A stretch of 10,156 nucleotides of DNA from an uncultured Burkholderiales bacterium. GTDB taxonomy: Bacteria > Pseudomonadota > Gammaproteobacteria > Burkholderiales > Burkholderiaceae_C. The notes under the pieces are model-generated. The model searched no databases. It worked only from the letters and a program-made list of their open reading frames with translations, and was not told where the DNA came from. The translations under genes were made by a program, and so were the position numbers. Where the stretch lies: positions 1 through 10,156 of the forward strand of contig CAIYKK010000354.1 in assembly GCA_903926695.1 (NCBI GenBank), written 5' to 3'. Shown piece after piece: positions 6,227 through 10,156 of this stretch (position 1 is the first letter of the stretch; each line of letters begins with the position of its first letter).

Positions 6227-7009
6227 TTACTGTGCGGTCCAGCCGCCGTCCATGTTCCAGGCCACGCCGCGCACATTGTTGCCCGCTGGCGAGCACAAAA
6301 ACACCGCCAGCGCACCCAGTTCTTCAGGCGTGGTGAACTGCTTTGATGGCTCTTTTTCACCCAGCAATTCCTGCGTGGCCGCATCGATGGAAATGCCTTC
6401 AGCTGCTGCTCGGGCATCGACTTGTTTTTGCACCAGTGGCGTGAGCACCCAGCCGGGGCAAATCGCGTTGCAGGTGATACCGGTGGTGGCGTTTTCGAGG
6501 GCGGTGACTTTGGTCAGGCCGACAATGCCGTGCTTGGCCGCAACGTAGGCTGATTTGCCCGCCGAGCCGACCAGGCCATGCACCGAGGCGACGTTGATGA
6601 TGCGGCCCCAGCCTTTACCGTCGTTGGACGCCTGCATCGCGGGCAGCGCCAAGCGCGTGGCGTGAAAAGCGCTGCTCAGGTTGATGGCCAGAATAGCGTC
6701 CCACTTGTCAACCGGGAAAGCTTCGATTTTGGCGACGTGCTGGATGCCCGCGTTGTTCACCAAAATATCGAGCTGGCCGAACTGCGCGGCGGCAAACTTG
6801 ATCATGTCTTCGATTTCGGCGGGTTTGCTCATGTCGGCGCCGTGGTAGGCGACTTGCACGCCCAGCGCGGCGACTTCGGCTTTGGGGCCATCGACATCGC
6901 CAAAGCCATTGAGAACGATGTTGGCACCTTGCGCGGCCAGCGCCTTGGCGATCCCCAGGCCGATGCCGCTGGTGGAGCCGGTGACGAGAGCTGTTTTACC
7001 TGTGAGCAT
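6227..7009 (-). CDS. bdhA: D-3-hydroxybutyrate dehydrogenase
   Basis: This cytosolic NAD-dependent short-chain dehydrogenase interconverts (R)-3-hydroxybutyrate and acetoacetate in the breakdown of polyhydroxybutyrate and ketone bodies. The 260 residues are full length. The nucleotide site is TGSTSGIG (10-17), with NNAG at 85-88. The catalytic tetrad is N110, S142, Y155 and K159 (SAYVAAKHG). Features specific to BDH rather than SDRs in general are IQHVAKIEAFPVDKWDAIL (89-107), WGRIINVASVHGLV (134-147), ITCNAICPGWVLTPLV (178-193) and the C-terminal DGGWTAQ. ATG 7009 has GGAG about 8 nt upstream (GGAGAAACTCTATG). A sigma-70 promoter lies at 7114-7142. It reads toward the outer-membrane protein gene, 196 bp downstream on the same strand. 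Confidence 0.96.
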   Translation of the reverse strand: MLTGKTALVTGSTSGIGLGIAKALAAQGANIVLNGFGDVDGPKAEVAALGVQVAYHGADMSKPAEIEDMIKFAAAQFGQLDILVNNAGIQHVAKIEAFPVDKWDAILAINLSSAFHATRLALPAMQASNDGKGWGRIINVASVHGLVGSAGKSAYVAAKHGIVGLTKVTALENATTGITCNAICPGWVLTPLVQKQVDARAAAEGISIDAATQELLGEKEPSKQFTTPEELGALAVFLCSPAGNNVRGVAWNMDGGWTAQ

Positions 7010-7113
7010 AGAGTTTCTCCGAATGATTTACGATGGTTGACTTGATATGGCGCAGTGGCCTGCAGACAAAGTCATGCAAACTTTGCTGAAGTAATTATCA
7101 AGCTTTCTTTCGT

Positions 7114-7142
7114 TTTTTATTCCTGACTGTCTGCACTGTCAA
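7114..7142 (-). promoter_or_regulatory. Sigma-70 promoter for bdhA
   Basis: Read on the minus strand, a perfect -35 TTGACA (7142-7137) is followed after exactly 17 bp by TAAAAA (7119-7114), which matches TATAAT at four of six positions. Transcription would begin near 7107, leaving about 100 nt of leader before ATG 7009. Two GACAGT/GACAGT-like copies in and beside the spacer could bind a regulator, but this is speculative. Confidence 0.6.
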
Positions 7143-7200
7143 CTACCCCATAAAGGGGCATCCAGTCCGCTTGCGTTAGTCACAGGTCGTTCAAATGCAC

Positions 7201-7225
7201 CAGCAAATGCTTCCTCAGTTTGCTG
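7201..7225. repeat. 7-bp inverted repeat upstream of the HEARO-like RNA
   Basis: CAGCAAA (7201-7207) and TTTGCTG (7219-7225) pair perfectly around an 11-nt loop. The repeat lies between the bdhA promoter and the structured RNA. It could be an operator for the original hydrolase promoter or part of the inserted element's left side. No protein or family can be named. Confidence 0.35.
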
Positions 7226-7260
7226 CTCTGCAAGGCTTTCATCATGCAGCCCAAAGGTAA

Positions 7261-7506
7261 AGGGGCGAAGGTTTTAGTCGCTACTCGCAAGAGTAGGAGC
7301 CAGCTGCTGACATTCCCGAGGACATACGCCGCAAGGCGTGGGTCACAAGGCCTTTACGGGCTAGTCGAAAGGCCGAGCAGGTGAAAAGCCTGCACCTTAT
7401 TCACGGGTGGCAAAAAACGGACGCGACAGGTACGCCACCGCTAGCGAAGGAACATTTTGTGTTCCAAGCTCTACCTCCCCGGCCTGAAAGCCGAGGTTTC
7501 ACGCGC
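7261..7506 (+). mobile_element. Putative ORF-less IS200/IS605-type element carrying an IscB omega-RNA (boundaries approximate)
   Basis: The HEARO-like RNA (about 7278-7466) is followed within 12 nt by a hairpin typical of IS200/IS605 right ends: CCCCGGC (7477-7483), loop CTGAAA, GCCGAGG (7490-7496), seven positions with one C-A mismatch, then TTTCACGCGC. In complete IscB or IsrB elements the nuclease gene follows the RNA; here there is no room for one and no remnant is visible. No transposase is present either. The element would therefore be non-autonomous, mobilised in trans if at all. The right end is placed near 7506, just before the hydrolase start. The left end is uncertain, somewhere about 7240-7280, since IscB elements begin where the RNA scaffold begins and take the guide from flanking DNA. 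IS200/IS605 insertion makes no target duplication, so none is expected. Confidence 0.5.
7278..7466 (+). ncRNA. HEARO-like omega-RNA (IscB/IsrB guide scaffold), orphan
   Basis: HEARO RNA (HNH endonuclease-associated RNA and ORF) is the scaffold that guides IscB/IsrB nucleases; the guide is at its 5' end. Seen here in order are CTACTC-GCAA-GAGTAG (7281-7296) and ACGCC-GCAA-GGCGT (7326-7339), both with GNRA loops. Next come GGCCTTT/AAAGGCC (7349-7355 with 7368-7374), GCAGGT-GAAAA-GCCTGC (7377-7393) and GGTGGC/GCCACC (7406-7411 with 7434-7439). The last is GGAACA-TTTTG-TGTTCC (7449-7465). The linking sequences GAGCCAGCTGCTGAC, GGCTAGTCGAAAGGCC, GCACCTTATTCACGGGTGGC and CTAGCGAAGG are what I remember as conserved in this family. 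The assignment rests on memory plus the hairpin order, not on a covariance search. The expected nuclease ORF downstream is missing. Confidence 0.65.
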
Positions 7507-7512
7507 AAACTG

Positions 7513-8442
7513 ATGAAGCAACCCAGCCTGAACTATGTTTCCTGTCCCGATGCCGCAGGCGGTCATCGCATGGCCTATTGGCAGTGGGGCCAGCCCGAGA
7601 GCAGCCACGTTGTGCTGTGCGTGCATGGGCTGACGCGGCAGGGGCGCGATTTTGATGTGCTGGCTCAGGCTTTGTGCGAACAGGCCGATTCGCTGCCCGG
7701 TTTTTCGGACGGCATTCGGGTGATCTGTCCCGATGTGGTGGGCCGGGGCGAAAGCGACTGGTTCCAGGATTCGGCGGGCTATCAGGTGCCCGCTTATGCG
7801 GCGGACATGCTGGCGTTGCTAGCCCAGTTGCACGCCCAGGCGCGCATCGTCACGCTGGACTGGGTTGGCACCAGCATGGGCGGGCTGATCGGCATGGTGG
7901 TGTGCGGCCAGCCTGCGCTGGCGCTGCCAGCTCCGGTGCGAAAACTGGTGCTCAACGATGTCGGCCCCACGCTGGAAGCGCCCGCCATTGCGCGCATTAC
8001 TTCCTACGTTGGAAAGGCCGGGCATTTCGCCACCTTGCAGAATGCGGCCGATGCGATGTGGGAAATTTCCAAGAGCTTTGGCCCGCACACGCCCGAGCAG
8101 TGGCTGGCGCTGTCGCGGCCCATGACCAGGCCCGTCGTGCCCGGCACCGACAGCCCGCTGCGGCTGCATTACGATCCGGCCATCGCCCTGCCATTCAGGT
8201 CGGCAACGCCGGAGTCGGCCCAGCAGGGCGAGGCCATGTTGTGGCATTTATATGACCGGATCGAGGCCAAAACGCTGCTGCTGCGCGGCGCCGTCTCAGA
8301 TTTAATCAGCCACCAAACAGCCCTTGCAATGACGCAGCGCGGCCCGCATGTCCAGTTGATCGAATTTGAAGGCGTCGGCCACGCGCCCACGCTGATCGCC
8401 GAGGACCAGGTCGCTGCCGTGGTCCGTTTCCTGCTTGAGTGA
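7513..8442 (+). CDS. Alpha/beta hydrolase
   Basis: The 309-residue cytosolic protein has the alpha/beta-hydrolase fold. The oxyanion strand is VVLCVHGLTRQGRDFD (33-48), strand-4 region VICPDVVGRGESDW (70-83), nucleophile elbow GTSMGG with S121, acid D263 (GAVSDLIS) and base H290 (GVGHAPTL), so the triad is complete. An insertion of about 100 residues (about 155-250), with MWEISKSFGPHTPEQW, forms the lid. The substrate cannot be read from sequence; esterase-like or C-C hydrolase activity is possible. The frame stays open upstream to a GTG at 7381, but that stretch is the RNA element, so ATG 7513 is chosen. No ribosome site precedes ATG 7513; the nearest GAGG is 16 nt away, inside the element's end hairpin. 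The next gene, relA, begins 28 bp after the stop and is probably co-transcribed. Confidence 0.92.
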   Translation: MKQPSLNYVSCPDAAGGHRMAYWQWGQPESSHVVLCVHGLTRQGRDFDVLAQALCEQADSLPGFSDGIRVICPDVVGRGESDWFQDSAGYQVPAYAADMLALLAQLHAQARIVTLDWVGTSMGGLIGMVVCGQPALALPAPVRKLVLNDVGPTLEAPAIARITSYVGKAGHFATLQNAADAMWEISKSFGPHTPEQWLALSRPMTRPVVPGTDSPLRLHYDPAIALPFRSATPESAQQGEAMLWHLYDRIEAKTLLLRGAVSDLISHQTALAMTQRGPHVQLIEFEGVGHAPTLIAEDQVAAVVRFLLE

Positions 8443-8470: not shown

Positions 8471-10156
8471 ATGAAAAACAAAGTGGCGGCGCTGACCGGA
8501 CCAACATCTTCTCCCGTTACCCTCAGCTCCATCGTCACGGCCACGGCTGACGGCCTGCCCGAGCAGCCCCATGCGCTGATCCGCGCCAGAGCCTTTGCCG
8601 AGCCGCTGCTGGCCAGCGAAACGCTGGACACTGGCGAAAACATCCTCGCCCACGCCGATGCGATGGTGGCCATTCTCGAACTGATAGGCGGCTCCGAAGC
8701 CCTGCAGGCCGCCGCTTACCTCGTTTATTCGTGCCAGCACCTGAACAAGCCGCAGGAAGTGATCGCCAAAGCGTTCGGCCCCAGCTACGCCGCGCTGGCG
8801 GTGGAAACCACCAAGCTGATCCAGGTGCAGCGCCAGACCCGCTCCGCCGATGCCAAAGCGCATTTGCACGACGACCCCGCCGCGCAAACTGAGAGCGTGC
8901 GCAAGATGCTGCTGGCGTTCTCGCGTGACTTGCGCGTCGTCATGCTGCGCCTGGCCTCGCGCCTGCAGACGCTGCGCTATTACGCCGCCAGCCGCCGCGA
9001 AGTGCCGCGTGCGCTGGCGCACGAGTCGCTGAACATTTTTGCGCCGCTGGCCAACCGACTGGGCATTTGGCAAATCAAATGGGAAATGGAAGACCTGGCC
9101 TTTCGCTTTCTCGAACCCGAAACTTATAAACGCATCGCCCGGCTGCTCGACGAAAAGCGCGCCGAGCGCGAAGTGTTCATGGAAGCGCTGCGCGCCCGGC
9201 TTGAGCGCGATTTGAACCACAATGGCATTGCCGCGCTGGTGCAGGGGCGACCCAAACACATTTACAGCATTTTTAAAAAAATGCGCGGCAAGTCGCTCGA
9301 CTTTGACCGGGTGTTTGACATCCGCGCTCTGCGCGTGGTGGCCGCCGATGTCAAAGGCTGCTACGCCGCGCTGGGCTTTGTGCATTCGCACTTCACGCCG
9401 GTGGCGGGCGAGTTTGACGATTACATCGCCAAGCCCAAGGCCAACGGCTACCAGTCGCTGCACACCGTGGTGCGCGACGAGGCCGGGCGGGCCATCGAGG
9501 TGCAAATACGCACCCAAGCCATGCACGACCACGCCGAAAGCGGCGTCGCGGCGCACTGGGCTTATAAAGAAGCGGGCACCAAAGGCTACGGCGGCGGCGT
9601 CAGCGCCAGCAGCGACTACGACGCCAAAATTGCCGTGCTGCGCCAGCTGCTCGCCTGGGAGCGCGATCTGTCCGGCCCGGCCACGCAGCGCGCCCGCGCC
9701 GCCAATCATGGCCTGCTGGAAGACCGGATTTACGTGCTCACGCCGGACGCGGCCATCGTCGAGCTGCCCCAAGGTGCGACGACGGTGGATTTTGCCTACA
9801 GCGTCCACACCAGTCTGGGGCACCGCTGCCGGGGCGCACGCGTCGATGGCGTGATGGTGCCGCTGAACACACCGCTGCAAAACGGCCAGACCGTGGAAGT
9901 CATCACGGCCAAGGAAGGCGGGCCGTCGCGCGACTGGCTCAATCCCGAGCTGGGTTTTTTGTCCAGCAACCGCGCCAGAGCCAAGGTGCGCGCCTGGTTC
10001 AACGCGCTGGCGATGGCGCACACCGTGGCCAGAGGACGCGAAGCAGTCGAAAAACTGCTCCAGCGCGAAGGCAAAACGGCGATGAAGCTCAACGATCTGG
10101 CGCTTCAGTTGGGCTTCAAGACCGCCGATGAGCTGTTTGAAGTGGTGGGAAAGGAC
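8471..10156 (+). CDS. relA: RelA-type (p)ppGpp synthetase, 3' end outside the window
   Basis: This is the ribosome-associated enzyme that makes (p)ppGpp from ATP and GTP/GDP in amino-acid starvation. The frame is open for 562 codons to the right edge; a full RelA is about 740 residues. The N-terminal pseudo-hydrolase domain covers about 40-200. The metal-binding HD of SpoT is replaced by Y86-S87 and the LADR aspartate by S163 (LASR), so it should not degrade ppGpp. The synthetase domain (about 255-370) has GRPKHIYSIFKKM (259-271), FDIRALRVV, the RelA-type acidic loop EFDDY (314-318), NGYQSLHTVV (325-334) and EVQIRTQAMHDHAESGVAAHW (343-363). The TGS domain runs 419-479 (IYVLTP to VEVIT). The ATG lies 28 bp after the hydrolase stop with no strong ribosome site. 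The remaining zinc-finger and ACT domains should lie beyond the window. Confidence 0.95.
   Translation, partial: MKNKVAALTGPTSSPVTLSSIVTATADGLPEQPHALIRARAFAEPLLASETLDTGENILAHADAMVAILELIGGSEALQAAAYLVYSCQHLNKPQEVIAKAFGPSYAALAVETTKLIQVQRQTRSADAKAHLHDDPAAQTESVRKMLLAFSRDLRVVMLRLASRLQTLRYYAASRREVPRALAHESLNIFAPLANRLGIWQIKWEMEDLAFRFLEPETYKRIARLLDEKRAEREVFMEALRARLERDLNHNGIAALVQGRPKHIYSIFKKMRGKSLDFDRVFDIRALRVVAADVKGCYAALGFVHSHFTPVAGEFDDYIAKPKANGYQSLHTVVRDEAGRAIEVQIRTQAMHDHAESGVAAHWAYKEAGTKGYGGGVSASSDYDAKIAVLRQLLAWERDLSGPATQRARAANHGLLEDRIYVLTPDAAIVELPQGATTVDFAYSVHTSLGHRCRGARVDGVMVPLNTPLQNGQTVEVITAKEGGPSRDWLNPELGFLSSNRARAKVRAWFNALAMAHTVARGREAVEKLLQREGKTAMKLNDLALQLGFKTADELFEVVGKD

Follow-up and report, generated by a model that had tools for sequence, protein, structure and literature searches.

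What is the structured sequence that stands directly in front of an alpha/beta-hydrolase gene in the window, the whole 10,156-nt stretch of DNA analysed here, and how did it come to lie there? The window makes up a whole contig of a Polaromonas genome whose assembly is fragmentary, with 751 contigs and a completeness of 86%. A preliminary description had read 7278-7466 as an orphan HEARO RNA, the omegaRNA of IscB-type nucleases, and had offered a decayed element, a non-autonomous element or a guide RNA recruited for host regulation as explanations. The hydrolase gene (7513..8442, plus strand), whose start codon adjoins the structured sequence, was assigned by Pfam and by orthologues in relatives. 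Also in the window are a 3-hydroxybutyrate dehydrogenase gene on the minus strand (6227-7009) and a RelA/SpoT-type gene (8471-10156) which continues past the contig end.

Ends common to sister copies and the empty site in relatives delimit an ORF-less element of 375 bp on the plus strand (7138..7512), running from GTCAACTACCCC to CAAACTG. The left end GTCAACTACCCC corresponds to HEARO model position 1 in the alignments of sister copies. The right limit is 7512, where CTG precedes ATGA, and the hydrolase ATG begins at 7513, so the earlier placement of the sequence in the hydrolase control region was correct. The hydrolase site was compared in 15 relatives, six of the loci being uninformative because they lay on the other strand and one (L075) not being comparable. 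Six relatives of the same genus (G003, G004, G008, G010, G014 and G019) had no element, and their sequence joined ATGA without a break; at L068 and L072 the ATGA was a few bases off the split point. The insertion in the window is precise and directly 5' of ATGA, with no target duplication visible, and the element ends and ATGA target are identical in kind to those of complete iscB copies. The left flank (7122..7137, plus strand), placed by position only, is a putative guide region; we take it from the IscB model that this stretch would serve as the guide were the omegaRNA functional.

As judged from alignment with the sisters and from the sisters' own HEARO alignments, the part derived from HEARO/omegaRNA spans 7138 to about 7329 on the plus strand and has lost about 51 nt close to the 5' end. 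The HEARO identity proposed earlier holds as to origin, but the HEARO part lies mostly upstream of 7278. The HEARO search suggested as a check (Rfam RF02033, cmscan) gave one match in the window, at 7197..7231 of the plus strand (model 93-127 of 211), with 26.6 bits (E 0.026 over the window, 0.0015 over 601 nt), below the Rfam gathering score of 83. An intact orphan HEARO in the window was ruled out by this score, and another RNA family was also rejected, the other listed Rfam matches being weaker than HEARO. In the element alignment the window copy was about 51 nt (net) shorter near the left end than the 426-bp sisters. Through this deletion the first helix has lost its 3' strand, the second hairpin is absent and a long-range helix is without most of one strand; the helices of the HEARO scaffold are accordingly incomplete in the window copy when it is aligned with the sisters and with the HEARO model.

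The ordered hairpins, the two GNRA loops and the sequence blocks described earlier are all present in 7278-7466, which folds better than 200/200 shuffles (z -3.0). The loops are GCAA in hairpin 7326-7339 and GAAA in hairpin 7364-7373; the blocks are GGCTAGTCGAAAGGCC (7359-7374) and CTAGCGAAGG (7441-7450), the second of which sits inside an iscB 3'-end remnant in the alignment. As a HEARO scaffold, however, these hairpins had been misread, since they are mostly leader and iscB remnant. By alignment, 7278-7466 is a composite of the HEARO 3' end, leader hairpins and the iscB 3'-end remnant. Four leader hairpins (7326-7339, 7350-7361, 7364-7373 and 7377-7393, together 7326..7393 on the plus strand) are common to the ORF-less copies, with 97.7% of cells paired in 15 copies, 13 of them distinct. 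Their covariation is modest, with changes on both sides in 3 of 17 pairs, a count matched by 27/500 shuffles; the covariation score was matched by 0/500. Two elements of P. naphthalenivorans CJ2 carry, upstream of iscB, a hairpin like the last leader hairpin followed by CACCTTAT or CACCATAT.

The iscB 3'-end remnant and the right end of the element occupy 7397..7512 (plus strand) in the alignment with iscB 3' ends, and the junction with the leader is at TTAT. In most ORF-less copies the leader passes into the iscB end at TTAT, which points to a deletion at a short repeat. Behind the window RNA no iscB gene was present, only this 3' remnant, in agreement with the earlier remark that the nuclease gene is absent downstream. 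DNA folding gave a left-end hairpin at 7146..7158 (CCCC-ATAAA-GGGG, plus strand), which spans the deletion junction and was equalled as DNA by 36/200 shuffles. It also gave a right-end hairpin at 7473..7497 (plus strand), which differs from the sisters by one base and folds at -5.1 kcal/mol vs -6.9 in the sister copy C749, with 60/200 shuffles folding equally well. A GTG at 7459..7461 (plus strand), a feature of the window's ORF-less type, has AAGGA upstream and is in frame with the hydrolase ATG; as a candidate alternative start, it may be where hydrolase translation begins, or the gene may use its own ATG.

A blastn search with 7100-7530 against the same genome returned 18 matches, the window itself included. 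At 75-89% identity there were four copies uninterrupted by a gene (C749, C565, C740 and C127) and three (C178, C260 and C522) in which about 1.3 kb carrying iscB splits the element between the same ends. The three iscB genes were open over 463 codons and all contained PF14239, and both of the two tested passed the NCBIfam IscB cut-off. PADLOC, run on IscB, matched solely HNH-type PtuB and other models and was uninformative for IscB. The term orphan thus fits the locus but not the genome, where three open iscB genes and another four ORF-less copies were found. The genome search proposed earlier found what it sought in iscB and in further copies; a tnpA with matching ends was not among its results.

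With the HEARO model, 33 places were found in six Polaromonas genomes examined closely. Together with the window and C565, both absent from the HEARO list, they form a set of 35 elements. Of these, 20 belong to the iscB class (G003_C66 being truncated at the end of its contig); the other 15 are ORF-less. The ORF-less copies were distributed over four of the six genomes (G000, 5; G003, 3; G078, 6; G083, 1). Twelve of the 15 were 423-432 bp long, the window copy and C565 were shorter, and G078_310 had no recognisable right end. The HEARO score reached at least 83 bits in nine of the 15 and 78-81 bits in three; besides the window, the low scorers were C749 (39.5 bits) and C565 (no match listed). 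Across the genus, 6/87 genomes were HEARO-positive in a search whose filters lose weak matches, as expected for a mobile element. No phage matched the element; ten plasmid records did, with a best coverage of 56%.

Scaffold damage was counted over 143 columns invariant among 17 iscB copies, G078_2815, G024_2206 and C522 being left out of the 20. The window copy had changes in 7 of the 122 invariant columns that it retains and lacked 21, C749 had 12 changes in 143, and C565 had 5 in 95 with 48 missing. The remaining 12 ORF-less copies had 0-3 changed columns in 11 cases and six in C127; the iscB copies, each left out in turn, had 0-3. The iscB remnant was likewise little altered (in 10 copies, 13 of 260 cells were changed, seven of the changes being in one copy), and for this reason the conservation of omegaRNA in the sisters is no proof of its use in trans.

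The ORF-less family has the same ends, an internal deletion and several dispersed copies, as is found in non-autonomous derivatives. The leader-iscB junction of the window copy recurs elsewhere, in ORF-less copies from four genomes; those that have this junction show 87-94% identity outside gaps. In the alignment two further kinds of 3' part were seen, one in C127, G003_C321, G078_238 and G078_743 and the other in G078_3226; for the copies at L162, L172, L173, L019:4657-5026 and L175, whose 3' part deviates from the iscB end of the main group, no source of that part was found. A tree of the omegaRNA region required four class changes, at least two of them forced by well-supported branches, compared with a shuffled mean of 11.6. 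A single origin of all ORF-less copies was rejected, because they form no single clade in this tree and their 3' parts are of three kinds; their history goes beyond a single event. At one glutathione S-transferase gene, ORF-less elements of different types take up the start in two species (C749 at L015, G003_C321 at L173). The left flanks of the two loci align, and the site may reflect independent insertions or replacement.

We conclude, with a probability of roughly 85%, that the element at 7138-7512 is non-autonomous and arose by deletion from an IscB-type element of the IS200/IS605 superfamily. It belongs, in decayed form, to a non-autonomous family that recurs and that TnpA presumably moves in trans. 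Observed directly were the limits of the element, its precise insertion 5' of ATGA, the ends shared with iscB copies, the loss of the ORF, the junction shared by several ORF-less copies and the damaged HEARO. Decay and non-autonomy, both among the options first proposed, thus combine here in a damaged HEARO and a lost ORF with several ORF-less sisters. Against this conclusion, the end hairpins of the window fold no better than shuffles.

IS200/IS605 elements are moved by TnpA as single-stranded DNA through recognition of their end hairpins; on this model IscB, directed by the left flank through an omegaRNA, would cut the site after rejoining, next to its target-adjacent motif. In the proposed course of events, a deletion that ran from the leader to the iscB 3' end would have cost an iscB element its reading frame, the ORF-less derivative would have kept both ends and spread, and the omegaRNA of the window copy would later have been damaged by a partial loss. 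In the window's own genome we recognised no tnpA whose ends match: there were five Y1 matches, and the ends viewed for four of them looked different by eye. We therefore infer mobility in trans: TnpA supplied from elsewhere would move the element as single-stranded DNA via its end hairpins. An IscB produced at another locus may take up omegaRNAs from intact sisters and cut the rejoined donor site, upon which the element would be copied back. The window copy would be unable to join in this copy-back, because its first helix and most of one long-range-helix strand are gone.

We consider it improbable that a complete iscB element was inserted at the hydrolase site and decayed in place without ever having moved in ORF-less form. 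The further private damage of the window copy and the complete iscB elements in the genome would agree with such a history, but the same leader-iscB junction recurs in ORF-less copies elsewhere in four genomes. Still less credible is control of the hydrolase gene by a domesticated guide RNA or a regulatory RNA. The element is structured and adjoins the start codon; the site is nevertheless empty in at least six relatives, the scaffold is damaged and scores below the cut-off, and the same family precedes many unrelated genes, so the recruitment for host regulation considered earlier found no support. An RNA or repeat family with no relation to HEARO, to which the score of the window far below the gathering score might point, can practically be dismissed, since the whole HEARO model is matched by ORF-less sisters that share the ends of the element, nine of them above the cut-off, and the other listed Rfam matches are weaker.

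IscB-family elements, both ORF-less and with iscB, dock at start codons, which was unexpected. Among 14 right-end-like sequences in the window's own genome, the first ATGA opened a frame that stayed open over the 60 codons read in 13, and in C178 the frame from the first ATGA behind the right end stopped after 13 codons; in two of the 14 (C474 and C127b) the ATGA lay about 9-14 nt behind the aligned end. In the whole set without G003_C66 and G078_310, an ORF of 60 aa or more started from the ATGA in 28/33 elements, compared with 137/333 control ATGA sites, which came from 18 loci of mostly coding sequence, some themselves holding elements. The excess was significant (binomial p 3e-7, Fisher 1.4e-6) in a sample where some sites, coming from related genomes, are not independent of each other, and it may partly reflect selection against insertions within genes. 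A Pfam match at 1e-5 was obtained for 24 of the 28 docked ORFs, and in ten docked ORFs the profile started within the first ten residues, examples being peptidyl-tRNA hydrolase, ATP synthase epsilon, a ThiF-family protein and RmlD. In 13/32 elements (G003_C66, G078_310 and C522 left out) the left flank held a Shine-Dalgarno-like word at the spacing of a start codon, vs 23/333 controls (p 8e-8); the window element was not one of the 13.

Excluding the truncated G003_C66, the iscB frame ended on the junction in 13/19 iscB elements. In 12 of these the stop TG|A was completed by the host ATG, and in G024_1799 the stop was within ATGA; in the remaining six the frame ended earlier than the junction. 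In RefSeq, four of five iscB genes on plasmids of CJ2 and Polaromonas sp. JS666 overlap the next CDS by one base, and these four are a subset of the 13. Of 52 plasmids with a match, 12 further ones were read, the junction sequence being checked in ten: iscB overlaps of 1 and 4 nt were seen on two Cupriavidus plasmids, the Ps. veronii and Deinococcus plasmids had no overlap but an annotated ATGA start immediately behind the right end, and the other eight had neither pattern or were unclear. A crude ORF pass over 18 named iscB loci gave an ORF in 12, some plainly not iscB; the two rows used, Paraburkholderia oxyphila (L097, 271 aa) and Caballeronia glathei (L098, 248 aa), had iscB ending on an ORF-opening ATGA. 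Short overlaps are described in a passage of one source (PMC10666635) as coupled via termination-reinitiation. The ending of iscB on the junction suggests translational coupling to the host gene, and the overlap may spare that gene. No paper among the matches listed dealt with IscB docking at start codons or with an iscB stop-start overlap, and we claim no priority.

Compared with known systems, the window resembles HEARO/omegaRNA (RF02033) in its left end, its segment order and the local match at model 93-127, and differs in the deletion of about 51 nt, the score below the cut-off and the lack of iscB behind it. Like IscB-encoding IS200/IS605-superfamily (ISC) elements it has both ends, ATGA at the right junction and an iscB 3' remnant, but no IscB reading frame. 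MITE/PATE-type non-autonomous derivatives of IS200/IS605 elements keep their ends, have the coding part deleted and occur as dispersed copies of similar size. The ORF-less family is like them in all these respects, whereas most of its sister copies retain a complete omegaRNA scaffold, beyond what the ends need. Standalone trans-acting omegaRNAs, which Altae-Tran is said to have reported with IscB in 2021, are like the window in that its omegaRNA has no adjoining nuclease gene and iscB is elsewhere in the genome; the scaffold of the window is broken, however, and a trans function of the sisters is putative.

Taken alone, the window copy is an ordinary decayed derivative of a known kind, and the interest lies in the family. 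It makes two questions testable: whether elements that have no gene but retain an omegaRNA are served by IscB in trans, and whether the exact insertion of IscB elements at start codons, with the stop-start overlap that they bring along, protects the host. A wider scheme, which we offer tentatively and think rather unlikely to hold as a whole, is that RNA-only OMEGA elements of Polaromonas with their own omegaRNA borrow IscB and TnpA in trans for RNA-guided copy-back, which would maintain them although they have no gene. The ATGA target would place them, like the iscB elements, in a host 5' region where guide and omegaRNA could be transcribed from the host promoter, and the stop codon of iscB, completed by the start codon of the host (TG|ATG), would restore host translation through termination-reinitiation. 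For IsrB, a relative of IscB, ATGA is supported as a target-adjacent motif, since it is described in PMC9581776 as cutting TTGA and ATGA targets.

Fragments of tnpA (Y1) were observed at contig edges of the window's own genome (L031-L034), as expected of a collapsed repeat, and their ends look unlike the IscB element. A candidate tnpA with a similar right end was found in only two relatives, CJ2 and G078 (L181 and L182), where the sequence behind the gene resembles the IscB right end with scores of 22 and 26 of 48. The IscB right end was also seen inverted, again beside ATGA, in elements with a tnpB-like ORF (L024:2062-2109, L025:223-271, L026:1413-1446 and L019:1160-1194); the ORF was read in the first three, and the last was assigned by similarity of its flank sequence.
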